Part shown: positions 3,589 to 22,325 of the stretch, one piece after another
How positions within the stretch are numbered: the stretch's first letter is position 1
Layout of the letters: the number at the start of each line of letters is the position of its first letter
Assembly: GCA_022072455.1 (NCBI GenBank)
Contig: JAJVHY010000003.1
Coordinates: 1 to 64,000 of the forward strand
Source: Verrucomicrobiia bacterium
GTDB lineage: Bacteria > Verrucomicrobiota > Verrucomicrobiia > Palsa-1439
Direction: 5' to 3'
DNA length: 64,000 bases
Program-made: the position numbers and the translations under genes
Notes under the pieces: generated by a model
What the model was told of the DNA's origin: nothing
Seen by the model: only the letters and a program-made list of their open reading frames with translations
Databases searched by the model: none

Positions 3589-5158
3589 AGCGGGTGGTGT
3601 ATCAGTTCCGTGCGCCAGAAGGGATCAAAGAATTCGCGGAGACTTGGGCGCGGATTCAGTTCACGGAATTGCTCCAGGCGGAGTTGCCACGCGCGCCGTT
3701 TGCGGGCCACCAAGGGCAACGGATCCCGCACCGCGAGGCCGTGACGGCCACCAGCAAATCGGGCCGGCGTTCCCCCAGGCGTTCGAGGGCAAAGACCCAG
3801 CCGCGCTGGATGGGTTCGTTGTCATTATAACAAAGGACGGGTTCGGGATTGGGGGACAAGTTGAATGCATCGCCGACGAAGATGACCCGGCGGCGAGCCA
3901 GCGTCACCGCAATTCCGGCATGGTAATACGTCTGGCCGGCAAGATGGAAGATCTCCAATTCATACTCGCGCCATGGAACCACCGTGCCGTCCGGCACTGG
4001 TTGATCCACCATGATCTGCGCCTGCTTCGTCCCATACCACGGCAGCCGGCAAGCCAGTGGATAATGCGCCGGTTGCTCCAACACCGCGGCGACCACATCC
4101 AACGCAATCACTGTGGATTGATCGGCGGCGACCAGCGCCGGAATGTTTTCAACATGGTCGCCGTGGTAATGCGTCGGGATAATCACTTCGATGCGCCGGA
4201 TCTGGTAGGCACGTTTCAAGTCATCCATCACTTGCCGGTGGCGCGCGGCGCGTTCCGGCAACGGCAACCATTGGCACAAACCATCATCCACCAGTAATGC
4301 GTGGCCGCTCGACGACAGCAAGACAGCGCAGTTGCCGGCGTTATCGGTCCATTGCAGCAGATTGGGCAGCAACTCGCGGAAGCCGGCGACGCGGGCGGGC
4401 CGGGCCGGCACCTGGTGCGGTGTTTCGTCCCAAGGGGCGCCGTCCGGCGGCGAGAGCACGGCTTGCAGCCGGGCGGCGAGCCGGTTGAGGCCGGTGGCCG
4501 GCGGACCGTGCGCCGGCAAGAGGTGTGTGTGGGGCCGGTCGCTGAGGCGTTGCGCGGATTCCAGCAAGGCGTGGACGCCAGTCTGCGCCCCGTAGTCCCA
4601 TTCCAAATCGAACCAATTCCAAAGTTGGGCGTGGTCGTAAATCAGGTCGCCGCAAAAGGCGAGCTGCTGGCCGGCTACGGACGTCAGGAGTGTCACGGCC
4701 TGTTTGCCATGTCCGGGCGTCGCAACCACTGTGAACCCAGCCAGTGTGGTGTCGGGGTGGAGTGATTCAGCCAGCTTGACCGGTCGGGGCAAGGGGCGTT
4801 CATTCGGCGCGCCGGCAAGGTGGCCTTGGTATTTGCCGCGGGTGCGCCAGTCCCACGGGGGTGGCCAAGGGGTGATTTGGTTTTCGACGGCCGCTGGCCC
4901 AGCGCATAAATATTCATCGCCTGCTGGCACGTGAAGCGGTACTGCCGGGAAATTCAGACAACCGGCGGCGTTCTCCGCTTGGAGGTGGGTCACAACAATC
5001 CGCGTGATCGGGCCGGTCATGGCCGGGGTGACATCGGCGGCCGGATCAATCAGGACTCGACCGGTGGGGGTGTCGAGCAGGTAGGTGTTGACGCCGCTGT
5101 TTCGGTTGGTCCGGCAAAACAGGGCGGGAAGGAGTGATTGGAACGCAGCGCGAGTCAC
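3585..5158 (-). CDS. Tandem metallo-beta-lactamase-fold protein, C-terminus frameshifted
   Basis: Two MBL-fold modules in one chain. The first (about residues 20-230) has a ruined metal motif: THLQAEN replaces HxHxDH, although GHG and FCGD remain. The second (about 265-500) has intact THYHGDH and FVGDAF and is the likely hydrolase. Read straight through, the frame gives 500 aa and stops at 3656 with an unfamily-like tail. Reading one base back near 3745 restores HGLAVRDPLPLVARKRRAWQ and continues to a stop at 3585. That stop overlaps the next gene's ATG as ATGA, the same junction used throughout this operon. A single base is therefore missing, by mutation or assembly error; no slippery heptamer is present. 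The lost segment carries the last conserved His of the fold. Its own start also makes an ATGA overlap with the upstream gene. Confidence 0.82.
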
Positions 5159-5772
5159 CGCGCCGCGCTCTTGCGCAGGATGAGTTTGACCGGTGTGCCG
5201 ACCGGCGGGACGACGTTGGTGTTGACCTGGAAGCCTTGGTCATCGCCGCGATAGGGGTTGCCCTGGTCGCCGCGGAGGTTGATCAGGATGGACGGTTGCC
5301 ACCAGAGCGCAATGTGGGCCTGCTCGGCGTCGGCTTGGAAGATTTTGTTCGTGGTGAACAAGTCCGGCACGAACATCGAGCCGGAAAAGAAAAATGGGAG
5401 CTTGCCCGGGGGTTTGCCCGTGCGCCGGTCAATGAGCCAGTCTTCCACCGGCCCACGGCGGGGTTTGGTTTTGTCCTGCCATTCGACTTCGATGGTCAGC
5501 GGGCTTCCATTCGTCTCGCCTTCTTCACAACCGATGAGCAACAGGCCGAATTTCACCGCCGACGGTTTGGCGGTCACCGTCAGCAAACTTTCATAGTCGC
5601 GTGTTTCTGGCTCGCAGGCGAGAAATTCCAGGATGTGGTCGTAGTGTGCGACTTTGGCTTCGACCTCCACCGATTGTTGCTCGCCGCCGACGATTCGCAG
5701 GCCGGGAATCTTGATCGCGTCAGCCGCGAGTGCGGTTCCGGCAATCAGGACGCTCAGAATCAACAATCTCAT
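5155..5772 (-). CDS. Secreted YdjY-like domain protein
   Basis: 205 aa from the ATG at 5772. That start is chosen because it overlaps the previous stop (ATGA) and begins a clean signal peptide, MRLLILSVLIAGTALAADA. A longer frame upstream lies inside the previous gene. The mature part, with VEVEAKVAHYDHILEFLACE and LLTVTAKPSAVKFGLLLIG, resembles the YdjY-like domain found in exported proteins of Planctomycetes and Verrucomicrobia; the biochemical role is unknown. There are no transmembrane segments after the signal, so it is periplasmic or secreted. It sits between a response regulator-phosphatase and the MBL gene in one tightly coupled operon. Family assignment is from memory and moderate. 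Confidence 0.7.
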   Translation of the reverse strand: MRLLILSVLIAGTALAADAIKIPGLRIVGGEQQSVEVEAKVAHYDHILEFLACEPETRDYESLLTVTAKPSAVKFGLLLIGCEEGETNGSPLTIEVEWQDKTKPRRGPVEDWLIDRRTGKPPGKLPFFFSGSMFVPDLFTTNKIFQADAEQAHIALWWQPSILINLRGDQGNPYRGDDQGFQVNTNVVPPVGTPVKLILRKSAAR

Positions 5773-7004
5773 ACACCCACTCGTAGCACGTCCATCCCCA
5801 GCAGGCAAACGTCGTCCGTAAAAACGCGGCGGGATGAAAAGTGGTAGACCTCATCTAGCAAATCGCCAAAGAGCGCGGCTGTCTGCATGTGGGCACGTTG
5901 TTGGAGCGCCTGAATGAGGCGGGATTCGCCGTACTCTTGGTTGGTGCTGTCGGTGACCTCAAACAGACCGTCGGTGTAGAGGACGACCAAATCGCCGGCC
6001 GCCATGGGCGCGCTGGCGACGGCGAATTGGGTTCCCTCAAACACGCCCAAAGCGGGGCCGGGTTTTTCCGCGCCGAAGGACAGCGGTGCCACCTCGGCTT
6101 GGTGCCGATGCACGTGCAGAGGGATCGGGTGGCCGGCGCCCGCATAGTGCATCAGGCCGGCCTGCGGGTCCGCCACGAGATAGAACGCAGAGGCGAACAT
6201 CGGCATCCGGGTTCGTTTCAAGATGCGAAGGAGCCGGCGGTTCATGTCGGTGAGAAATCGGCCGGGATCATCGAGCGCGACCGGCCCCAACTCTTCGGCC
6301 AGCGCGCGCAGATATGCCATCACGAGGGCCGCGCGGACGCCGTGGCCCATCACGTCGCAGATGAACACTCCGGCGCGATTTCCCGGCAACGTGAGCACGT
6401 CGAAATAATCACCGCCAACCGTCGTAGTGGGCAAATACCGGTGGTCAAACCGGAGGGCGCTTTGTTCCGGGGCCACGCCGGCCGGGAATGTCGGGAAGGA
6501 GCTGGGCAGAAATGCTTCTTGAATTTCGCGCGCCATGTTCAGGTCGGTTTCGAACTGGGCGTTGCGGTGACGGAGTTCTTCGGTGTAGCGAGCGAGTTGT
6601 TCTTCGAGATGCCGGCGTTCGAGGGCGCTGGTGATGGCGCGCAACAGCGAGGCGACGTCGAGGTGATCCTTGGACAGGTAATCTTTCGCGCCGCGTTTCA
6701 TGGCTTCGACGGCGATTTCTTCGCGGCCCATGCCGGTCAACATGATGACCGCCGGCTGTTCGGTTGCCGGCTGGGTGCGAATGAAGTCGAGGACGGTCAA
6801 GCCGTCGCCCGTGGGGAGCCGGTAATCCAGCAAAACAAGCTCGAAGCGGTGTTGCTTGACGGTCTCCAAGGCCCGCTCGGCACTGTCAACCCAGGTGACG
6901 ACAAACTTCAGGTCGGTACCGAGTGACGGGAGCAGCCGTTGCAGAACCTCGGCATATATCGGATTGTCTTCGACCAGCAAAAGCGGAATGGGCTTCATCG
7001 GCAA
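5769..7004 (-). CDS. Response regulator with PP2C (SpoIIE/RsbU-type) phosphatase output
   Basis: 411 aa. The N-terminal receiver (about 5-125) has LLVEDN, the phospho-accepting Asp in LVLLDYRLPTGDG, and Lys in AKDYLSKDHL. A short coiled linker (130-180) leads to a SpoIIE-type PP2C domain with VGGDYFDVL, ICDVMGHGVRAAL and LVVLYTDGLFEVTD, which supply the metal-binding Asp residues. Proteins of this build dephosphorylate STAS anti-sigma antagonists when the receiver is phosphorylated. It is third in a kinase, receiver, receiver-phosphatase cassette with almost no spacing. Two STAS proteins and an RsbW-like kinase lie 37 kb away in this window and are plausible partners, but nothing here proves it. 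Confidence 0.93.
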   Translation of the reverse strand: MPMKPIPLLLVEDNPIYAEVLQRLLPSLGTDLKFVVTWVDSAERALETVKQHRFELVLLDYRLPTGDGLTVLDFIRTQPATEQPAVIMLTGMGREEIAVEAMKRGAKDYLSKDHLDVASLLRAITSALERRHLEEQLARYTEELRHRNAQFETDLNMAREIQEAFLPSSFPTFPAGVAPEQSALRFDHRYLPTTTVGGDYFDVLTLPGNRAGVFICDVMGHGVRAALVMAYLRALAEELGPVALDDPGRFLTDMNRRLLRILKRTRMPMFASAFYLVADPQAGLMHYAGAGHPIPLHVHRHQAEVAPLSFGAEKPGPALGVFEGTQFAVASAPMAAGDLVVLYTDGLFEVTDSTNQEYGESRLIQALQQRAHMQTAALFGDLLDEVYHFSSRRVFTDDVCLLGMDVLRVGV

Positions 7005-7006
7005 GG

Positions 7007-7447
7007 TTACCGGGGCGGGAGTTTGGAAAGTTCGAGCCAGTATTGCTGGATGTCGGCGATCAACTTGACGCAGTCATCGAATTGGACGGGCTTGGTCAGA
7101 TAGCTGTTGGCCCCGTATTGATAGCTGCGCCGCACGTCGTCGTCCCGGTCGGACGTGGTGAGGACGACGATAGGGATGTCTTTGAGGGCGGGCTCGGTCT
7201 TGATCTGCATGAGGATTTCGATGCCGCTTTTGCGCGGCAGGTTCAAATCCAACAGCACCAAATCCGGGCGGGGCGCGCTGCCGGCCTTGGCGAACCGGCC
7301 GCGTTGAAACAGAAAATCCAGCGCCTCCTCGCCATCCCGGCAGACGGCGACGTGATTGCCGCTGCGACTGCGGCGAAAGGCTTCGAGCGTGATCTCGACG
7401 TCGGCCGGATTGTCCTCGACCAACAAGATTTCAAACGGTTTGCGCAA
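7007..7447 (-). CDS. Stand-alone response regulator receiver (Rcp1-like)
   Basis: 146 aa single receiver domain: ILLVEDNPADVEI at the N-terminus, phospho-Asp in LVLLDLNLPRKSG, the switch region IVVLTTSDRDDD and Lys in SYLTKPV. This pattern matches Rcp1-type single-domain regulators that pair with phytochrome-like kinases. The start is a TTG at 7447 inside the end of the kinase gene. It is preferred because a perfect AGGAGG lies 5 bases upstream and translation from there begins right at the receiver fold. The longer upstream frame is the shadow of the kinase gene. Overlap with the kinase implies coupled translation and a shared phosphorelay. Confidence 0.9.
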   Translation of the reverse strand: MRKPFEILLVEDNPADVEITLEAFRRSRSGNHVAVCRDGEEALDFLFQRGRFAKAGSAPRPDLVLLDLNLPRKSGIEILMQIKTEPALKDIPIVVLTTSDRDDDVRRSYQYGANSYLTKPVQFDDCVKLIADIQQYWLELSKLPPR

Positions 7448-8903
7448 CGGGGCCTCCTTGCTTGGCGACCGACCGGGGGAGTTCCATGATCGTGCCGGAC
7501 TTGGTGGTTTCGCGTTTCGGAATCGTAAAGTAGAACGTCGTGCCCTGGCCTTCTTCGCTCTCCAGCCAAATCCGCCCGCCGTGCCATTCGATGACGCGCC
7601 GCACAATCGTCAGCCCAATGCCGGTGCCTTCCTCGTCGCGTTGCAGGCGCTGGAAGATCTGGAAAATCTTGTCGAAGTATTCTTTTTTGATCCCCTGCCC
7701 GTTGTCGCGCACGTAAAATTCGTACTCAATCAACCCGGTATCGGGATTGGGTTTCTCCGCACACCCGACTTCCACCACCGGCAACGGCTTGTCGTTATAC
7801 TTGATCGCGTTCGAGATCAAATTGTGAAACACCTCGGTCATCGCCGTCGCGTCACAAATGACGGTCGGCAGCCGGTTGACGTGCAACTCCGCCTTCTTCT
7901 GGTCCAGCGCGAACTGGAGGTTGACGCGCACGTGCATCAACATCGCGTTCAGGCCGACTGGCGTCATCGGATTGCGTTGTTGCGCCAGCCGGGAAAACTT
8001 CAACAAATCGCCGATGAGCCGTTGCATCCGCAAGGTTGAGTTGCGGATCGTGTCCACATAATGCCGGCCATTGTCATCCAGCTTCTCCCGGTAGCCATCC
8101 GACAAAAATTTGCTGAACGCCTCGATGCCGCGCAACGGCTCCTTCAAGTCGTGGCTGATCACGTAGGTGTACTCGTCCATTTCCTTTTGGGCCGCCTTGA
8201 GTTCCTTTTGCGCCTTCGCCAGCCGCGCCTGCCCGTCCTCGACGCGCATCACCACCTCATTCAACGTCCGCCCCACCTGATCGATCTCCGCCAGTTCACT
8301 CTCGAGCCGTTCCCCGCGCGATTCGCCCTTGGCGACACGTTGCACGTATTGATTCAACTCCGTCAGCGCATTCCGCACTGGGGCTGAGGCAAAATACCCG
8401 GCCGCCAAACTTATCGCCAACAATACCACCCCCAGCAGCACATCCACCCCCACCGTCTGTAAGAGGCCGCTCATCGTCTGCGCGCGGCTCACGCCCAGCT
8501 CCACAGTCCCCCAACTGTTCGTCGCCGGCCCGACCGGCGCGGTGACCACCAGCAAATCCACCACATCACGCCGGGGGATCAAACTGTACAATGAACTGCC
8601 CTTCGCGTTGACGATCCGCACCTGCACGACATCATCATCCTGCACGACGGCAGTGACGGCGGAGGCCACCTCCTGCTGATTCCCGCTCCGCACCGCGGGT
8701 GCCGCCACCGCGGCCAACTGCCGGGCCATCGTTTCCGCCCGCCCCACCAGCAATTCTTCGCGCGTGTTCAAATCGCGCAACACGTGCATCGCCGATAAAA
8801 TCACAATGGCGCCCAGCGTCGCGACCACCATCCACGCGGCGTACTGAACTTTGACGTTGTACTTTGGAACCACGCGCCCGGTATTCTCTGCTTCACCATC
8901 CAA
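7431..8903 (-). CDS. Membrane sensor histidine kinase (phytochrome-type kinase core)
   Basis: 490 aa. Two membrane segments (about 22-42 and 150-172) bracket a roughly 105-aa extracytoplasmic sensor region. A HAMP-like linker and coiled coil follow (175-245), then HisKA with the phospho-accepting His in YVISHDLKEPLRG, and an HATPase with FHNLISNAIKYN (N box), VRDNGQGI (G1) and GTGIGLTIVRR (G2). The IFQIFQRLQRDEEGTGIGL pattern is typical of kinases that pair with Rcp1-like receivers. The start shown is TTG with a GAGGG-like site upstream; a GTG ten codons later is possible. It heads the cassette that continues with the receiver and the receiver-phosphatase, and is divergent from the metal ATPase across about 50 bases. 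Confidence 0.92.
   Translation of the reverse strand: MDGEAENTGRVVPKYNVKVQYAAWMVVATLGAIVILSAMHVLRDLNTREELLVGRAETMARQLAAVAAPAVRSGNQQEVASAVTAVVQDDDVVQVRIVNAKGSSLYSLIPRRDVVDLLVVTAPVGPATNSWGTVELGVSRAQTMSGLLQTVGVDVLLGVVLLAISLAAGYFASAPVRNALTELNQYVQRVAKGESRGERLESELAEIDQVGRTLNEVVMRVEDGQARLAKAQKELKAAQKEMDEYTYVISHDLKEPLRGIEAFSKFLSDGYREKLDDNGRHYVDTIRNSTLRMQRLIGDLLKFSRLAQQRNPMTPVGLNAMLMHVRVNLQFALDQKKAELHVNRLPTVICDATAMTEVFHNLISNAIKYNDKPLPVVEVGCAEKPNPDTGLIEYEFYVRDNGQGIKKEYFDKIFQIFQRLQRDEEGTGIGLTIVRRVIEWHGGRIWLESEEGQGTTFYFTIPKRETTKSGTIMELPRSVAKQGGPVAQTV
7453..7458 (-). promoter_or_regulatory. Perfect Shine-Dalgarno AGGAGG setting the TTG start
   Basis: AGGAGG on the reverse strand, 5 bases before the TTG at 7447, inside the last codons of the histidine kinase. 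It decides the start of the receiver gene and explains how a TTG start could be used efficiently. Confidence 0.8.
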
Positions 8904-13587: not shown

Positions 13588-14259
13588 TTAATCAGCCAGC
13601 AGCCGATAGCCAATGCCGGCTTCCGTCCGGATCAACTTTTGCTGGGGATTGCTTTCGAGCTTCTTCCGCAGATGGGTGATGTAAACGCGGAGATATTGCG
13701 ATTGCTCCTCGGCTTTCGGTCCCCAAACTGCGCGGAGCAATTGCTTTTGGGTGACGACTTTGCCGGCATGCCGGACCAACTCGTGCAGCAACGCATACTC
13801 CGTGGCCGTCAAATGCACTTCTGACTTCTGGACGGTGACCGTCCTTTGCGCGAGGTCAACTGTCAGATCGCCGACGACAAAGACCGGCGCTTGGGCTTCG
13901 GGCGCGCGCCGCTGAATCGCCCGCAGCCGCGCCAATAATTCTGCCGTACTGAACGGCTTCGTCAAATAATCATCCGCGCCGGCATCCAAAGCCGCGACTT
14001 TGTCGGCCTCCTGATTGCGCACCGTCAGGACGAGCACCGGTGTCGTGCTCCACTCACGCAGCCGCTGCAACACCACCAACCCATCCATATCCGGCAACCC
14101 CAGATCAAGCACGACGACATCCGGCCGTTTCGCCGCCGCGTCCTGCAACCCGAGCTGACCGGCTTCCGCTTCAAAAACTCGGTAGCCGGCCGGCTCCAGC
14201 GTCAGTCGCAACAACCGCCGAATCGGCGGCTCATCATCAATGATCAAAACGCTTTTCAT
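13588..14259 (-). CDS. kdpE: KdpE response regulator
   Basis: 223 aa OmpR-class regulator. The receiver (1-120) has SVLIIDDEPPIRRLL, phospho-Asp in VVVLDLGLPDMDG and Lys in DDYLTKPFS. The winged helix (130-223) has LTATEYALLHELVRHAGKVV and YITHLRKKLE. It activates the kdp genes when KdpD phosphorylates it under potassium limitation. The ATG at 14259 is inside the last codons of kdpD (23-base overlap), as in other kdpDE pairs, and begins the receiver fold exactly. Here kdpDE lies downstream of the structural genes on the same strand, so autoregulation is likely. Confidence 0.95.
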   Translation of the reverse strand: MKSVLIIDDEPPIRRLLRLTLEPAGYRVFEAEAGQLGLQDAAAKRPDVVVLDLGLPDMDGLVVLQRLREWSTTPVLVLTVRNQEADKVAALDAGADDYLTKPFSTAELLARLRAIQRRAPEAQAPVFVVGDLTVDLAQRTVTVQKSEVHLTATEYALLHELVRHAGKVVTQKQLLRAVWGPKAEEQSQYLRVYITHLRKKLESNPQQKLIRTEAGIGYRLLAD

Positions 14260-16852
14260 TCGTCTCCACCGGCAAGCGCAACGTGAACGTCGCGCCGCCG
14301 GTCGGGTGGTTCGCCGCGAACGCTTCGCCCCCATGCGCCCGGGCGATCCCGGCCACAATTGACAGGCCCAGTCCGGACCCGCCGGTCTTCGAGTTGGCGC
14401 CCCGGTAGAATTTCTCGAAAATCTTCTTCTCCTCGCCGGGGGTGAGGCCGGTGCCGTGGTCGCGGATCTCCAATTCCAGCCTGCCGGCGTCGAGCCGCGC
14501 GGCCATCTCGACCGGGGTCCCGGCCGGGCTGTGCTGGACGGCGTTGATGAGGAGATTGCACAACGCCTGTTCTATCAAACCAAAATCCAATCGCACGAGC
14601 GGTAAGTTATCCGGTAACTGAAGCCGGATGCGTTCGCGTGAAATTTCGTTCGCGAGTTGATCCACCGCCGACTCCAGCAGTTCCCGGACTTCGCCCCACT
14701 CGGGATTCAGCGGCGTCTTCCCGGACTCGATGCGCGTCATCTCGAGCAGGTTGGTGACGATGCGTTCGAGCCGCCGGTTGGCGGCATGGATTTCGTCAAT
14801 GAATGTCTTCCCCAGCGGCACATCATCCAATTGCGTCGCCAAGCCTTCCGTCGCCGCGCGAATCACAGCTAATGGCGTCTTCAGCTCGTGCGACACCGAA
14901 TCGAGCAACGTGCGATGCAACTTTTCCGACTCTTCCGCAATTCGCGCCTCGTGTGCCTGCTCCATGAGCCGGTAACTCTCGATCATCACCGCGATTTGCC
15001 CGGCCATCGTTTCGAGTAGATCCCGCTCATTCATTGTCAACGTCGTGCGTTCAGCGAACCGCACCCCCAGCACGCCGTGTTGCCGCAACGGTAAATACAT
15101 TGCGGTCGCCTCCGGCAGCGTTTCAGTGAACCGGCCGGCGATCTGCTCGTTTTGCAGCGCCCACATGGCCACGGCAAGTTCCTTCTCGTCCGGTTGAAAT
15201 GTGCTCGTTGCGTGCGGAGCGCCGTCCAACAGAATCGTCGTGTGCGCTACGAACAACGCGTCCACCTCCTTCACCGCGCGTCCCAATCCATCGGCCAGCG
15301 ACGTGCTGGCGGTCACGCTCTCCAGCAGCCGGTTCAGCGCCGCGGTGCGGCGCTCGCGGCGGCGTTCCGCAGCTTCGCGGACGCGGAGTTGATTCGTAAA
15401 ATGCCCCATCGACAGTGCCACCACAAAGTACATGAAGAACATCATCAGATCGTGGACGTGGCTAATGTGAAACGTGAAGACCGGCGGGATAAACAAAAAA
15501 TTCCAGAGCACTGCGCTCAACGTCGCCACCACCAACACCGCCCACCGGTTCAACACCATCGCCAGCAACACCACCGCGAGCAGATACACCAACGCAATCG
15601 CCCAATAGCCGGTCACCTCCTGCAACAACCAACTCACCAACGTCACCGCCCCGACTGCGCCCGTTCCCCAGCCGCAATCGCGTAACAGGTTTGAGCCCAG
15701 CCAATCCGTCACCCGTCGCCGCTGTCCGAGGCCGGTCTTCTCGCCACGCACGATGTGGATGTCGATGTCGCCACCGTGTCGGATCAATTTCGTCGCCAGC
15801 GAACCGCCGCGGAGAAATTCGCGCGCTGGATGCCCGAGCGGTTTGCCAACGACGATCTGCGTGACGCCTTGTTCGCGCGCGACCTCGAGTATCGCGGCGG
15901 CGATGTTGTCGCCGGCCGTGCTGACGACTTCCGCACCGAGCTGCCGGGCTAGCGAAAGATTCTTCGTCAACCGCGCCTTGTCCTCCTCGCCGAGCGGTGT
16001 CGAAGTCTCGACGTAAATCGCCAGCCATGGCGCATCCATCGCACTGGCAACGCGCCGCGTCCAGCGGATGAGTTGCGCCGAATACGGGCTTGGCCCGACG
16101 CCGACCGCGAGCCGCTGGGTTGCTTGCCACCGGCCACGCTTGAGTCCGCCATCGACGCTTTCCGCCGTGACCCGCAACGCAATCTCGCGTAACGCCGCCA
16201 GGTTTTCTTCCTGGAAGAAATTCTCCGCCGCCGTCGCCGCGCGGTCGCCCAGATACACTTTACCTTCGGCGAGACGCTTGCGGAGATGTTCGGGCGTCAG
16301 GTCGATGAGTTCGATTTCGTCGGCCTGATCGAGCACGGTGTCTGGCACTGTCTCCCGCATCGCGATCCCGGTGATTTGCTGCACAACATCGTTACGACTT
16401 TCGAGGTGCTGGACGTTTAGCGTCGAGTAAACATTGATGCCGGCATCGAGGAGTTCGAGCACGTCCTGATAACGCTTCGGATGCCGGGAGGTCGGCGCGT
16501 TCGTGTGCGCGAGTTCGTCGACGAGCACGAGCTGCGGTCGCCGCGCGAGAATCGCGTCGATGTCCATCTCTTCGAGCGTCACGCCCCGGTAATCAATACT
16601 CTTGCGATCAATGATCGGCAACCCGGCCAGCAACGCTTGGGTCTCGGCTCGCCCGTGTGTTTCCACGATGCCGACGACCACCTTCACGCCTTCGCGTTGC
16701 CGGGCCTGCGCCGCTTGTAGCATCGCGAACGTCTTGCCGACGCCCGGACACATGCCAAAGAAAATTTTTAGCTGGCCGCGCTTCGCCAGTTGTTCCTCGC
16801 GTTTGATCTCCGCAAGCAGTAAGTCCGGGTTGGGCCGTGGCCGCTCGCTCAT
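14237..16852 (-). CDS. kdpD: KdpD potassium sensor histidine kinase
   Basis: 871 aa, full length. The KdpD N-terminal domain (about 20-230) has Walker A FFGMCPGVGKT and VLVDELAHTNAPTSRHPKR. A universal-stress-type domain follows (about 245-370). Then come the DUF4118 membrane block of four helices (about 395-490), a GAF-like region (510-630), HisKA with His near residue 654 in DSVSHELKTPLAVIRA, and an HATPase (NLLINAVQHS, EKFYRGANSKTGGSGLGLSI). In Staphylococcus the stress domain binds c-di-AMP through an SxS motif; here the equivalent region reads GPSPYSAQ, so that binding is not evident. Overlaps kdpE and starts 4 bases after the four-helix sensor-like gene. Confidence 0.96.
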   Translation of the reverse strand: MSERPRPNPDLLLAEIKREEQLAKRGQLKIFFGMCPGVGKTFAMLQAAQARQREGVKVVVGIVETHGRAETQALLAGLPIIDRKSIDYRGVTLEEMDIDAILARRPQLVLVDELAHTNAPTSRHPKRYQDVLELLDAGINVYSTLNVQHLESRNDVVQQITGIAMRETVPDTVLDQADEIELIDLTPEHLRKRLAEGKVYLGDRAATAAENFFQEENLAALREIALRVTAESVDGGLKRGRWQATQRLAVGVGPSPYSAQLIRWTRRVASAMDAPWLAIYVETSTPLGEEDKARLTKNLSLARQLGAEVVSTAGDNIAAAILEVAREQGVTQIVVGKPLGHPAREFLRGGSLATKLIRHGGDIDIHIVRGEKTGLGQRRRVTDWLGSNLLRDCGWGTGAVGAVTLVSWLLQEVTGYWAIALVYLLAVVLLAMVLNRWAVLVVATLSAVLWNFLFIPPVFTFHISHVHDLMMFFMYFVVALSMGHFTNQLRVREAAERRRERRTAALNRLLESVTASTSLADGLGRAVKEVDALFVAHTTILLDGAPHATSTFQPDEKELAVAMWALQNEQIAGRFTETLPEATAMYLPLRQHGVLGVRFAERTTLTMNERDLLETMAGQIAVMIESYRLMEQAHEARIAEESEKLHRTLLDSVSHELKTPLAVIRAATEGLATQLDDVPLGKTFIDEIHAANRRLERIVTNLLEMTRIESGKTPLNPEWGEVRELLESAVDQLANEISRERIRLQLPDNLPLVRLDFGLIEQALCNLLINAVQHSPAGTPVEMAARLDAGRLELEIRDHGTGLTPGEEKKIFEKFYRGANSKTGGSGLGLSIVAGIARAHGGEAFAANHPTGGATFTLRLPVETNEKRFDH

Positions 16853-16856
16853 GGGC

Positions 16857-17747
16857 TTAGTGTAGTCTGTTCGACGACGGATTCAGCAACAAAAGCTCGC
16901 GGGGCGAGTAGATCGCCCGGCCGATGGGCTTGCCGGGAGTGGGCTCGTGTTCGACCGCTTGCTGCAACGCCATCAACGCTTCATCGCACGCGGCGAGCGC
17001 TTTTCGTTTTTCGTTCAACGAAAGCATGAGTGACCGGACATTCGTGTTCTCTCGCGACAACTTGATGATCTCTGCCCGCAAGGAGCTGAACTTCTCGAAG
17101 CTCGCCGTCGCGGCTGGATCGCGCACTTCAGCGAGCGCCCGGCGAACCTGCCGGTCTTCCTTCGTCATTGCGGATTCCATCGCGTCCATCTCGGCGTCAC
17201 CGTGCTCCGCGATGTGGGGCGGTAACGCTGCCAACAAACGCCACGCGCCCACGCGCGCTTCCGTTGCGGCCGACGACGTCTTCTGCGTGAGTGCCGCATC
17301 CATTTCCTTGACTGCGACCGTTGCCGGGCCAAACGCGAGACTGAACGCCTTCAAGTTCGTGTTCTTCACCGCCAACGCCAGCACTTCCTCGTCGATACGT
17401 TGCAGTTCGGCGAACGCCGTCGCGAAGTTTGTGAACAGTCCCTGCTCGTCCGGTAACAGCAGCCGCTCCAGTTGCTGACGTTCCGCCGCAGCGGACGCCA
17501 ACCGGGCACGAGCTTGCCCGGCAAATTTCTCCGAGTCCTCATCCGTGATCGCCAGTACGGCACTCTTCTCGGCCTCCGCCGCCGATTCCACACTCGAACG
17601 GATTTGGTTCACCAACGCGAGCCGTTGCGACTTCGACTCCCGATCCTCGCCCACGTGGAAATAGGCCACCACCGCCACTATCACCAGCAACACCAGCGAT
17701 CCGATCCCCATCCATACTGCTTCATTGATCCCAGGCTTGATTGGCAT
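16857..17747 (-). CDS. Membrane-anchored four-helix-bundle sensor-like protein in the kdp operon
   Basis: 296 aa. One membrane helix near the N-terminus (about 12-32) is followed by about 260 residues that are almost entirely helical and polar. They resemble the four-helix ligand-binding domain of chemoreceptors (4HB_MCP) without any HAMP, kinase or signalling domain. It lies between the 80-aa membrane protein gene (10-base gap, with a GTAGGAGG-type ribosome site) and kdpD (4-base gap), so it belongs to the operon. An accessory sensor or a modulator of KdpD or the pump is a reasonable inference. It is not a standard kdp component and I cannot assign a function. Confidence 0.75.
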   Translation of the reverse strand: MPIKPGINEAVWMGIGSLVLLVIVAVVAYFHVGEDRESKSQRLALVNQIRSSVESAAEAEKSAVLAITDEDSEKFAGQARARLASAAAERQQLERLLLPDEQGLFTNFATAFAELQRIDEEVLALAVKNTNLKAFSLAFGPATVAVKEMDAALTQKTSSAATEARVGAWRLLAALPPHIAEHGDAEMDAMESAMTKEDRQVRRALAEVRDPAATASFEKFSSLRAEIIKLSRENTNVRSLMLSLNEKRKALAACDEALMALQQAVEHEPTPGKPIGRAIYSPRELLLLNPSSNRLH

Positions 17748-17756
17748 GACAACCTC

Positions 17757-17999
17757 CTACGGCGAACCACCGCCATGCAGAATGGCAACGATCATTAACA
17801 CAAACCACGATACTACTGCCCACAGGCCGAGACGAAGCATAAAGCGGTTGGGGCGTGACACGACATCGCATCGCGATTTTGTCAGCGAAGCATCCACCAA
17901 CCAGCGCACACCTGGGCACGACCCTTGGAAACAATCCGCGATGACCGGAAACTGAAAGCTCCGGTGGGGGTGCGTTTGTGTGTTCATGGGGAAACTCAT
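17757..17999 (-). CDS. 80-aa membrane protein coupled to kdpC
   Basis: The ATG overlaps the kdpC stop as ATGA, the strongest argument that it is real. The first 50 residues are polar with three Cys and several Arg/His. A single hydrophobic helix (LGLWAVVSWFVLMIVAIL) precedes a short tail HGGGSP. A different frame covers the same bases but lacks both the coupling and the membrane helix, and is rejected. No family is recognised. Position after kdpC and before the four-helix protein suggests an accessory subunit or regulator of the Kdp pump, which is inference only. Confidence 0.68.
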   Translation of the reverse strand: MSFPMNTQTHPHRSFQFPVIADCFQGSCPGVRWLVDASLTKSRCDVVSRPNRFMLRLGLWAVVSWFVLMIVAILHGGGSP

Positions 18000-18547
18000 T
18001 TGGTTTCATCCAAAGCCATGTTCAACTCGAGCACATTGACCAGCCGGTCGGAAACGAAAACGCCGTCCGTGGCGAAAGCCTGCTGTTTGACGAGCGCTTC
18101 GATTTTTGGCAAGGCGAGCCCGCGCGCCTTGGCGACGCGCTCGGTTTGGTACAACACCGCGTGTTCGGTAATGTGCGGGTCGAGTCCACTGCCGGACGCT
18201 GCGGCGAGTTCAGCCGGTAGGGGGTTCTCGGCGGTCGCGCCGGAGGCAACGATGTTAGTCTGTGCCCGGTCGGTCAGATCGCTGCTCGTTGGCGATTTGT
18301 TACTGCCGCCCGCACCTGCAGCGTTGTAGTCTGCCGCGGAAGGCCGGGGCCAGAAGTATTGCGGCTGTGTGAATTTCTGAGCGATGAGCCGGCTGCCGAC
18401 GATCTTGCCGTCCTTCGTGACCAGCGAACCGTCCGCTCTCGCCGGCACGACCATCTGGGCGAAACCGAGAATGATGGCGGTGTAACCGGCCACGCAAACG
18501 AGCATTGTGATGACGACCAGACGAAGACTGGTGATGAGTAATTTCAT
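17996..18547 (-). CDS. kdpC: KdpC subunit of the K+ ATPase
   Basis: 183 aa. One N-terminal membrane helix (about 10-30) is followed by the periplasmic-side domain with the family block SRLIAQKFTQPQYFWPRPSA, the DPHITEHAVLYQTERVAKARG region and a conserved end (VNVLELNMAL). KdpC assembles with KdpA and KdpB and aids nucleotide affinity or complex stability. The start is 7 bases after kdpA. Its stop overlaps the next small gene. A middle segment (about 85-120) is Ser/Ala/Thr-rich, as in other KdpC proteins. Confidence 0.95.
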   Translation of the reverse strand: MKLLITSLRLVVITMLVCVAGYTAIILGFAQMVVPARADGSLVTKDGKIVGSRLIAQKFTQPQYFWPRPSAADYNAAGAGGSNKSPTSSDLTDRAQTNIVASGATAENPLPAELAAASGSGLDPHITEHAVLYQTERVAKARGLALPKIEALVKQQAFATDGVFVSDRLVNVLELNMALDETK

Positions 18548-18554
18548 ATTGCCT

Positions 18555-20219
18555 CTATTTCATGAACATCAAGTGTTCGGCGATTGGACCAAGTGTCGCG
18601 AGCGGGAAGAACGTCAGCGCACCGATGAACAAGAGTGTTCCTCCTAGCATCACGCCAAACGTCACACTCTCTGTGCCCAACGTACCGACCGATTCTGCGG
18701 TCGGTTTCTTCGCGGCCAGCGACCCGGCAATGGCCAGTGGCAAGAAGATCGGAATGAAGCGTGCGAGCATCATGACGATACCGGTCGCGACGTTCCACGG
18801 GATGGTGTTGTCGCCCAACCCCTCGAAGCCGGAACCGTTATTCGCATTGGCGGAACTGAATTCGTAAACAATTTCACTGAACCCGTGCGGGCCGGTATTG
18901 TTGAGCGTCTTCTGTCCCCAATCCGTCGCGGCAAACAGTCCGGTCGGCGCGAGCACGAAGAAGCAATGGGCGAACAAGGCGATGACCGCCAGCTTGACCT
19001 CGCGCGCCTCAATGCGCCGGTTCAGGTATTCCGGCGTGCGCCCCACCATCATGCCGGCCACAAACACAGCGAGCACGATGTAGATGAACATATTGATCAT
19101 GCCGACGCCCACGCCGCCAAACGTTGCATTCAACCACATGCCGATCATCGACATCAGCCCGGTCATCGGGTTGAGGCTGTCGTGCATGGAATTCACCGAA
19201 CCGTTGCTGGTCGAGGTCGTCAACACAGCCCACAATGGACCGGCCGCTGTCCCGAACCGCAGCTCCTTGCCTTCGAGATTGCCGGTGGTCTGCTCAATCG
19301 GCAGGCCGGCGAATGCCTGCGTCGGCGCGGCTTCGAAATACACTGCCCCGCCAATCTTGGCCACCAGAAAGACAAGCATCACGGCAAACACGACCGCCGC
19401 GTGCCGGAGGCGTTTGACGATGTGCCCAAACATCCACACGCTACCCATCGGGATGAGGATGATCGAGACTGAGGCGACGATGTTTGTCCAGAACGTCGGA
19501 TTCTCGAACGGATGCGCGCAATTCGGCCCGAAGAACCCGCCACCGTTCGTGCCGAGTTGCTTGATCGCCACAAACGCCGCGACTGGTCCGCGCGCAATAA
19601 TCTGCTCAATGCCTTCCAACGTCGTCGCCTTCGCCGCGCCCAGCAGCGTCATCGGTATTCCGCCGAGAGCAAACAGCACCGCCACGATGACCGCCACCGG
19701 CAAGAGCACGAGAAACGTGGCGCGTTGCAGATCAATGAAGAAGTTGCCCATGTCCTTGCGCCCGGCGATTCCGCGCGCCATTGCGGTCAGCGCCGCAATG
19801 CCGGTCGCCGCCGAAACGAACTGCAGCCACATCAACGCGCACAGTTGCGAGAGATAACTCATCGAAACTTCGCCGGAATAGTGCTGGAGGTTCGTGTTCG
19901 TCGTGAACGATGCAGCGGTGTTAAAGATGCAATCGAGGTTGATCGCGCCTTTGCCATCGGGATTCAAAAACAAGTGCTGTTGGAGCGCCATGAATCCAAA
20001 GCTGACGACGAACATGAGCACGTTGAACACGAGCATCGCGACGCAATACTGCTTCCAGTTCTGCGGCTCATTGCTGTAACGCCCGCCGAAGCGGTGGAAC
20101 AGCCGGTCAAACCCGTTCGGCTTGTCCGGGTCCATGGCCCATTTCATATACCGGCCCAGTGGCCAGGAAAGCAGCGCCGTGCCGCCGACGATAAACGAGA
20201 TAAAGAGTATGGCATTCAT
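18555..20219 (-). CDS. kdpA: KdpA potassium-translocating subunit
   Basis: 554 aa, about ten membrane helices, related to the KtrB/TrkH channel superfamily. Filter-type segments are visible: TAASFTTNTNLQHYSG, LGTNGGGFFGPNCAHPFENP, and the later TSTSNGSVNSMHDSLNP and NANNGSGFEGLGDN. It binds and conducts K+ while KdpB hydrolyses ATP. Its ATG overlaps the stop of the second KdpF-like ORF (ATGA), and kdpC follows after 7 bases. It lies downstream of kdpB, whereas most operons run kdpF-A-B-C. Confidence 0.97.
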   Translation of the reverse strand: MNAILFISFIVGGTALLSWPLGRYMKWAMDPDKPNGFDRLFHRFGGRYSNEPQNWKQYCVAMLVFNVLMFVVSFGFMALQQHLFLNPDGKGAINLDCIFNTAASFTTNTNLQHYSGEVSMSYLSQLCALMWLQFVSAATGIAALTAMARGIAGRKDMGNFFIDLQRATFLVLLPVAVIVAVLFALGGIPMTLLGAAKATTLEGIEQIIARGPVAAFVAIKQLGTNGGGFFGPNCAHPFENPTFWTNIVASVSIILIPMGSVWMFGHIVKRLRHAAVVFAVMLVFLVAKIGGAVYFEAAPTQAFAGLPIEQTTGNLEGKELRFGTAAGPLWAVLTTSTSNGSVNSMHDSLNPMTGLMSMIGMWLNATFGGVGVGMINMFIYIVLAVFVAGMMVGRTPEYLNRRIEAREVKLAVIALFAHCFFVLAPTGLFAATDWGQKTLNNTGPHGFSEIVYEFSSANANNGSGFEGLGDNTIPWNVATGIVMMLARFIPIFLPLAIAGSLAAKKPTAESVGTLGTESVTFGVMLGGTLLFIGALTFFPLATLGPIAEHLMFMK

Positions 20220-20300: not shown

Positions 20301-22325
20301 TTAGACGATGTGCAACGCCGCCACGATCATATCGATCAGTTTGATTCCGACGAACGGTACGACCACGCCGCCCAGTCCGTAGATAAGCAAGTTGCGCCGC
20401 AAGATCGCTGCCGCGCCGAGTGGCCGGTATTTCACGCCTTTCAGCGCCAGCGGAATCAGGGCGACGATAATCAACGCATTGAAAATGACCGCACTGAGAA
20501 TCGCCGTCTCCGGGGAGTGCAGGTGCATGATGTCCAGCGCCGCGAGTGGACCGCGCCCCGTCGTCGCATAGACCCCCGCAAACATGGCCGGCAGGATGGC
20601 GAAATATTTCGCTATGTCGTTGGTCAAACTGAACGTCGTCAACGCCCCGCGCGTCATGATGAGTTGCTTGCCGATCTCGACGATGTCCATGAGCTTCGTC
20701 GGATTGCTGTCGAGGTCCACCATGTTGCCAGCTTCGCGGGCGGCTTGCGTGCCGGTGTTCATGCAGACGCCCACATCGGCTTGCGCCAACGCCGGGGCGT
20801 CGTTCGTCCCGTCACCGGTCATGGCGACGAGGTGGCCGGCGGCTTGTTCTTCCCGGATGCGTTTGAGTTTTTGTTCCGGTGTCGCTTGCGCCATGAAATC
20901 GTCCACGCCAGCTTCGGCGGCGATGGCGGCGGCGGTCAGCGGATTGTCGCCGGTAATCATCACGGTGCGGATGCCCATCTTGCGGAGTTGAACGAAGCGC
21001 TCCTTGATGCCGCCTTTGACCACGTCCTTCAGATGAATCACGCCGAGCAATCTGTTCTTCTCCGCGACAACCAACGGTGTGCCGCCGGAACGGGAAATTT
21101 TCTCCACAGTTTCGGTCACGGTCTTGTCGTTGTGACCGACCCACTGGAAGATGGCGTCCGCTGCACCCTTGCGGATGCTGCGGCCATTCAGATCGAGACC
21201 GCTCATGCGCGTCTGGGCGGTGAACGGGACAAATGTGGCGTGCGGCGCGGCGACTTCCCGGCCGCGCAACCCGTATTTCTCCTTGGCCAGCACGACGATG
21301 CTGCGGCCTTCCGGCGTTTCGTCGGCGATGGATGCGAATTGTGCGGCGTCGGCGAGTTCTTCGGGTTTGACGCCGGTCGCGGGAATGAATTCCGTCGCCA
21401 TCCGGTTGCCGAGCGTGATCGTGCCGGTCTTGTCGAGCAACAATACGTCCACATCACCCGAGGCTTCGACGGCCTTGCCGCTCATCGCCAGCACGTTGCG
21501 TTGCATCACACGATCCATGCCGGCAATGCCGATGGCGCTCAACAGCCCGCCGATGGTCGTGGGGATCAAACACACGAGCAACGCAACCAATACCGGCACA
21601 GTGAACACCGTGTTGGAATACACGCCGTAGGGTTTCAGCGTCACGCAGACGAGCAGAAACACCAACGTGAGCGCCGATAGCAGAATGGTAAGCGCGACTT
21701 CGTTTGGCGTCTTTTGCCGTTGTGCACCTTCGACGAGCGCAATCATCCGGTCGAGGAAGCCGTGACCCTTTTCCATCGTGATGCGTACGACAATCCGGTC
21801 ACTCAGCACGCGCGTGCCGCCGGTCACCGCGCTGCGGTCGCCGCCGGACTCGCGGATGACCGGCGCGGACTCGCCGGTAATGGCCGATTCATCCACGCTG
21901 GCAATGCCTTCCACCACGTCGCCGTCGGCCGGTATGACATCGCCCGTTTCGCAAACGACGAGGTCGCCCTTCTGCAAGTCCGGCGCAGAGATTTTCTCCT
22001 CAGTTTTGTCGCGTAATCGGCGGGCAATGGTATGCGTGCGCGCTTTGCGCAACGCATTGGCCTGCGCCTTGCCGCGCCCTTCCGCGACCGCTTCGGCAAA
22101 ATTCGCGAAAAGCACCGTGAACCATAACCAGACCGACAGGTGGGCGATGAAGCCGCGAGCTGTCGGCGAGGTGAAAATGCCAACCGTCGTCAGGATCGCG
22201 CCGACCATCGTCACGAACATAACCGGGTTCTTGATCATCGCCCGCGGCTGCAGTTTCTTGAATGAGCCACCGATGGCTGGGCCGATGATGCGCCAATCAA
22301 AAAGCGAAGCAGGTCTCTGTGTCAT
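20301..22325 (-). CDS. kdpB: KdpB catalytic P-type ATPase subunit
   Basis: 674 aa. Actuator with [21 protein letters not shown] (the Ser in TGES is the inhibitory phosphorylation site known in E. coli KdpB), phosphorylated Asp in [14 protein letters not shown], hinge [18 protein letters not shown], and the C-terminal block [20 protein letters not shown] typical of KdpB. It couples ATP hydrolysis to K+ entry through KdpA. The ATG at 22325 has an AGGAA site upstream. It follows kdpF after 9 bases and is separated from kdpA by the second KdpF-like peptide gene. Confidence 0.97.

Follow-up and report, generated by a model that had tools for sequence, protein, structure and literature searches.

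A membrane-anchored helical-bundle protein encoded beside kdpD belongs to a family linked to several potassium importers

Introduction

Control of K+ uptake is thought to rest on KdpD itself, on c-di-AMP and on cytoplasmic partners. The KdpD of Escherichia coli is reported (PMC5936718) to detect outside K+ unaided, and the N-terminal domain of KdpD, a serine kinase, also phosphorylates the pump (PMC11018627), so that a helper protein would be dispensable and could tune either output. Two systems may serve, by analogy, as precedents for an accessory protein acting from outside. LprJ/LprF of Mycobacterium tuberculosis bind KdpD, and signalling to it has been proposed (PMC3610689); the lipoprotein QseG, encoded beside the kinase QseE, activates that kinase (PMC12691602).

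Helical bundles with a comparable architecture are found among sensor domains. The HBM domain of McpS from Pseudomonas putida (2yfa/2yfb, PF16591) is formed by two stacked four-helix modules outside the membrane and belongs to a chemoreceptor with HAMP and signalling domains that binds organic acids; HBM domains in general bind organic acids or act via binding proteins (PMC5126104). The sensor domain of TorS (3i9y, 3o1j) is likewise a two-module bundle, works through a partner protein, TorT, and is part of a histidine kinase. Here we analyse a gene of the kdp cluster in a 64,000-nucleotide stretch (hereafter the window) of a Verrucomicrobiia bacterium, whose product, the target, resembles these sensor domains in its predicted fold and, unlike McpS and TorS, carries neither a chemoreceptor signalling part nor a kinase.

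The gene, its product and its operon

The gene and the parts of its product map as follows:

16857..17747, minus strand: target gene, encoding a 296-aa protein predicted to be a membrane-anchored extracytoplasmic two-module helical bundle (ORF call, Pfam, AlphaFold2, Foldseek)
17664..17720, minus strand: N-terminal membrane anchor, residues 10-28 (hydropathy; a lipobox instead in some relatives)
16950..17630, minus strand: helical-bundle domain, residues 40-266 (AlphaFold2 pLDDT mostly 94-98; Foldseek matches to McpS and TorS)

The reading frame is intact from ATG to stop, fills exactly these coordinates and is single-copy, with no second copy in the window's genome and no match among the PLSDB plasmids. 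It is a real gene, having full-length homologues of 48-56% identity with dozens of invariant columns. Hydropathy gives a single hydrophobic segment (residues 10-28). HAMP, HisKA, HATPase and MCPsignal domains are all missing from the Pfam result, in which PF12729 (4HB_MCP_1) is the sole relevant match, at 25.2 bits for a cut-off of 27. Its relative L073 scores 32.1 bits, and all 34 aligned family members match this profile at E ≤ 0.01 (best E 8.7e-14); judged by profile similarity, PF12729 is a related superfamily, with the target itself below the curated cut-off. The target differs from 4HB_MCP_1 proteins in having no second transmembrane (TM) helix, HAMP or MCP part, and is about twice as long as a simple 4HB sensor domain. 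With one TM segment and no HAMP or MCP domain in Pfam or NCBIfam, it does not qualify as a methyl-accepting chemotaxis protein. The HBM profile PF16591 matches neither the target nor any other of the 34 members, NCBIfam gives only chance matches, and PDB sequence searches with the target alone and with the family profile returned nothing relevant. The family is absent from Pfam and NCBIfam as a named family.

On the minus strand the cluster reads kdpB, kdpA, kdpC, target, kdpD, kdpE:

20301..22325, minus strand: kdpB, first gene of the cluster (Pfam E1-E2_ATPase and Hydrolase; used as tblastn query for the kdpB of relatives)
18555..20219, minus strand: kdpA (PF03814)
17996..18547, minus strand: kdpC (PF02669)
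14237..16852, minus strand: kdpD, complete, with KdpD-Usp-DUF4118-HisKA-HATPase architecture (Pfam), 4 bp downstream of the target
13588..14259, minus strand: kdpE response regulator (Pfam, NCBIfam), overlapping the kdpD end; start set at the ATG of MKSVLIIDDEP

The preliminary description of this stretch had read the gene as a membrane-anchored protein devoid of HAMP, kinase and methyl-accepting parts and lying directly upstream of kdpD. All three points stand, the target ending 4 bp before the kdpD start at 16852. It had also described the kinase as almost lacking a periplasmic domain, which is correct and usual for KdpD: the DUF4118 membrane block (residues 394-499, Pfam) has outside loops of about 4 and 10 residues, as read from the sequence. 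Such short loops appear ordinary since E. coli KdpD, going by the account in PMC2440551, has four TM regions within aa 401-498.

The order B-A-C of the importer genes (22325-17996, minus strand) is A-B-C in the relative L007. Between kdpC and the target lies an 80-aa reading frame, ORF80 (17757-17999, minus strand), whose start overlaps the kdpC stop as ATGA and whose end is hydrophobic; considered as a KdpF-like small subunit, it had no convincing match among 40 loci (best E 0.056). No promoter-like site emerged from a scan of 16800-18100, and terminator-like matches in the same interval were not taken as real, lying inside coding sequence.

Predicted structure and conserved motifs

The AlphaFold2 model, built with the family alignment as input, is all-helical with a mean pLDDT of 91.3, as the preliminary description had anticipated. 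Its four long helices are broken at residues 65-68, 129, 181-183 and 234, at conserved motifs, and these four interruptions imply two stacked modules. Foldseek places the TorS sensor domain as the best PDB match (E 1.2e-3, about 14% identity), along with that of McpS (TM-score 0.56-0.57 by query and 0.68 by target, the highest values obtained; 14-15% identity). The E-values are moderate (1e-3); the top nine matches are all TorS or McpS, other helical bundles scoring far lower. A model of the lipoprotein relative L073 shows the same helix breaks and matches PilJ, McpS and TorS, the top match being the periplasmic region of PilJ (7zjr; E 8e-4, TM 0.51-0.56). PilJ, from the twitching pathway, is itself of chemoreceptor type and has an output domain. 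On predicted models, then, the target has the two-module all-helical outside sensor fold of the HBM/TorS/PilJ structural class, and structure prediction of the isolated protein, proposed earlier as a check, returned a chemoreceptor or kinase sensor-domain fold.

The four helix breaks coincide with these motifs:

17532..17546, minus strand: T68-D69-x-x-S72, kink of helix 1 (alignment, T68 nearly invariant; break 65-68)
17346..17366, minus strand: K128-N-T-N-L-K-A134, kink of helix 2 (N129, N131 and K133 invariant in 34 sequences; break at 129)
17205..17219, minus strand: P177-H-I-A-E181, kink of helix 3 (H178 invariant in the alignment; break 181-183)
17031..17057, minus strand: S231-R-E-N-T-N-V-R-S239, kink of helix 4, a repeat of the helix-2 motif (alignment; hhalign; break at 234)

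Most of the 21 invariant columns of the 34-member alignment fall into four clusters, D69/S72, N129/N131/K133, H178 and S231-R232-N234-N236-S239-L244-K247. There is a partial internal repeat: hhalign matches the NTN helix of the first half to the ENTN helix of the second (probability 78.7, E 1.7e-5). In the model the polar signature TDxxS/NTNxK/PHIAE/SRxNTNxxS lies at a common kink level and is the likely ligand- or ion-binding or switching site; its conservation inside the bundle suggests a specific function.

Location and distribution of the family

The target itself has a TM anchor and not a lipobox. In L073, L074, L075, L089, L090, L091 and the second copy of L067, a lipobox-type Cys after a signal peptide replaces the membrane helix (called by pattern in the first three and read from the sequence in the remainder). 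Because these relatives carry a lipobox in place of the helix, the target domain should lie outside the cytoplasm; homology thus supports the extracytoplasmic placement given in the preliminary description. Charge counts around the TM helix, taken alone, do not decide the orientation.

The family is uncommon, with members spread across many phyla. In the class sample it occurs in 5 of 236 genomes, all in the window's own taxonomic family, and the phylum sample held no homologue beyond the window itself. A scan of GTDB genome contigs yielded 36 loci labelled Verrucomicrobia, Planctomycetota, Omnitrophota, Bacteroidales, Myxococcales, Riflebacteria, Spirochaetaceae and others, many of them from metagenome-assembled genomes, where binning errors and wrong taxon labels are possible. 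Searching the order of one labelled genome, a Polyangiaceae bin, with a profile added three more; the order of L073's genome has 4 carriers among 145 genomes.

Potassium importers in the neighbourhood

Searches by tblastn with the window's Kdp proteins found kdp genes at 15 of 41 target-family loci. Target and kdpD lie on the same strand about 4-55 bp apart in six of them, with the target first in the window, L040 and L043 and kdpD first in L047, L050 and L052. Elsewhere kdpC overlaps the target (L007), the genes are divergent (L044, L066) or convergent (L091), or the target sits between two kdp operons (L053). The binomial p for this linkage is 5e-20 at an assumed background of 1% (3e-17 without near-duplicate loci) and 5.6e-10 at 5%, the background rate per locus being an estimate from genome size and not a measured value. 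Context did not bias the locus set, since loci were found by protein sequence only. On a quick 41-row tree with long branches, the kdp label requires at least 10 changes, 4 of them forced by starred branches, so that the linkage has been formed or broken repeatedly; it is present in TM-anchored and lipoprotein branches. Among the 4 carriers in the order of L073's genome, 2 are kdp-adjacent, one of these being also beside Kup.

In an all-against-all comparison of neighbours, kdp was joined by a second recurrent companion of target homologues, a permease of about 660 aa. It is KimA-like (L047 protein against Bacillus subtilis KimA 6s3k, E 6e-64) and occurs at 8 loci, five of them without kdp (L051, L058, L063, L067, L068). 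In L090 Kup is divergent from the target homologue, with kdp genes beyond, and in L062 and L065 the homologue adjoins genes for an ammonium transporter (Amt) and GlnK. About 18 of the 41 loci have no K+ gene in the examined stretch, some contigs being short; L008, L009, L010, L048 and L059 have none despite 16-17 kb of sequence.

KdpD exceeds the family cut-off in 23 of 33 carrier genomes. The other 10, some of them incomplete assemblies, have no confident KdpD; six of these have KimA (G374, G378, G380, G385, G387, G391), G391 with KdpA in addition. Neither KdpD nor an L047-type KimA was found in the remaining four, G392, G394, G396 and G397, whose assemblies are partly incomplete; G396 and G397 are divergent lipoprotein carriers, and in G394 (L072) the neighbouring permease is distantly KimA-like (E 2e-4). 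Within the class sample KdpD is present in 5 of 5 carriers versus 84 of 231 non-carriers (p 0.007), and the comparison of 23/33 carriers with 89/236 class-sample genomes gives p 6e-4, a rough value as the taxa differ. Genus g2, which belongs to the same taxonomic family as the window, has KdpD, yet there the gene lies away from kdp. Since KdpD-less carriers mostly have KimA, KimA, Kup and Amt occur as neighbours and the g2 gene is unlinked, the family goes with K+ uptake broadly: what the neighbourhoods share is K+ import and not KdpD alone.

Other features of these loci were recorded. Genes of ZnuABC-type metal ABC transporters recur near the target homologue and KimA, lying near the homologue at six loci (L043, L050, L051, L054, L056, L062). 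Outer-membrane beta-barrel-like genes lie between or beside kdp genes in L047, L050, L052, L054, L040 (435-1706), L066 (4502-5797) and L095 (1373-2662), and are possibly porins for K+ entry. Several KdpDs adjoining the target homologue end near HisKA and lack the ATPase end (L043 5735-7915; L052 5756-7942; L047/L050 5902-7962); the phospho-acceptor motif of the L043 protein reads SYELPEPL, and L047/L050 have a separate DUF4118 histidine kinase at 3712-5211. On the Bacteroidales-labelled contig L054, a helical HAMP protein without kinase (14767-15663) stands between kdpC and the KdpD gene and is possibly another sensor without output in a kdp operon. The kdp operons of L060 and L091, which also hold a target homologue, encode histidine kinases with a helical outside sensor behind a short KdpD (5804-7618 and 5408-7294; HAMP-HisKA-HATPase for the L060 kinase, the L091 kinase being read from the sequence). 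In genus g2, universal-stress-protein-like and Ser/Thr-kinase-like genes occur between kdpC and kdpD (L093 8192-9801; L094 814-3930). In L044 kdpB is split over several frames (3883-5910), from a pseudogene or an assembly error.

Discussion

The occurrence of relatives beside several K+ importers in unrelated bacteria indicates that the target is probably an outside component or sensor of K+ uptake. We rather favour an extracytoplasmic sensor or adaptor that acts by contact with the K+-uptake machinery, a reading built on what was computed: the protein's anatomy, the class of its fold, its placement outside by homology and the repeated linkage to importers. The N-terminal membrane helix, or a lipid anchor in some relatives, would hold an elongated two-module four-helix bundle outside, where the polar signature at the common kink level of the four helices may be a ligand or ion site or a conformational switch. 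Having no transmitter, the protein would have to work by touching the membrane-embedded part of whichever K+ system is encoded beside it, and so change the activity or signalling of that system. In the window the likeliest partner is either KdpD, through its DUF4118 block, or the KdpFABC pump; at other loci it would be KimA or Kup. Physical contact, a ligand and either stimulation or restraint of uptake are inferences of this reading. Linkage alone is also compatible with mere co-expression with K+ genes, and a sensor-like fold is no proof of sensing.

The preliminary description had assigned the protein more narrowly, as a source of external signal for KdpD. The sensor fold, the outside location and the kdp linkage across phyla agree with it; KdpD as the dedicated partner is not supported, as homologues also stand beside KimA, Kup and Amt and the g2 gene is apart from kdp. 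The family's presence in genomes lacking kdpD, which it had named as an argument against itself, was found in 10 of 33 carriers on the basis of no confident KdpD match, some being incomplete assemblies and six having KimA. An accessory sensor dedicated to KdpD, with an outside signal setting its kinase/phosphatase (or serine-kinase) state through the membrane block, is accordingly a doubtful explanation, even if the same-strand adjacency at 4-55 bp, a KdpD almost without outside domain and the precedents of QseG-QseE and LprJ/LprF-KdpD speak for it. Besides the carriers without confident KdpD, it has against it that E. coli KdpD is reported to sense outside K+ alone and that the adjoining KdpDs of L043, L052, L047 and L050 lack the kinase end; output there would pass through the N-terminal serine kinase (PMC11018627) or a separate kinase. 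The shared importer invites another explanation, in which the target is an outside accessory or regulatory subunit of KdpABC, KimA and Kup that gates, stabilises or assembles them, for example, and does not work via KdpD. The KimA-only loci, the kdpC-target overlap in L007 and the divergent Kup of L090 fit this proposal, which we also regard as unlikely: the target has the fold of a signal sensor, and it is hard to see how one protein could serve both a P-type ATPase complex and the structurally unrelated permeases of the APC superfamily.

A still less probable view sees a general helical protein of osmotic or envelope stress, co-regulated with K+ uptake without touching it. It would account for the isolated copies (L008, L009, L010, L045, L059), for the ZnuABC-type and outer-membrane barrel genes that also recur nearby, and for lipoprotein forms with a non-Asp residue after the Cys, which could reach the outer membrane; however, K+ genes are foremost in the recurrent linkage, which has been re-formed in separate branches, and conservation of the polar residues within the bundle hints at a specific role. 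The PF12729 superfamily match might recall a chemoreceptor or kinase in decay, with the output domain gone. We reject this extremely improbable origin because the family is conserved at full length: homologues in many phyla have like ends, including the C-terminus, and the same motifs, and the lipoprotein forms also lack a second membrane helix.

Returning to contact with the K+-uptake machinery, its extension to the family as a whole is more tentative. Free-standing HBM/TorS-like proteins, with a TM anchor in most bacteria and a lipid anchor in Myxococcota-type genomes, could be an external sensor or regulator shared by Kdp, KimA and Kup, K+ importers of unrelated kinds, and perhaps by NH4+ uptake, reading a ligand or ion at the polar waist where the four helices kink. 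LprJ/LprF resemble the target in being anchored outside with proposed KdpD signalling, and QseG shares the lipid anchor of some relatives and, like the target, is encoded beside a kinase, both being likened by description and not by homology; QseG, unlike the target family, is kinase-specific and has no K+ link. The fold and the idea of an accessory sensor are already known; the literature searched contained no paper on a free-standing family of this fold tied to several K+ importers. If the proposed role is true, a chemoreceptor-type sensor domain would act without a transmitter of its own, and K+ homeostasis would gain an external layer, formed by a conserved outside protein that accompanies Kdp, KimA and Kup in different phyla.
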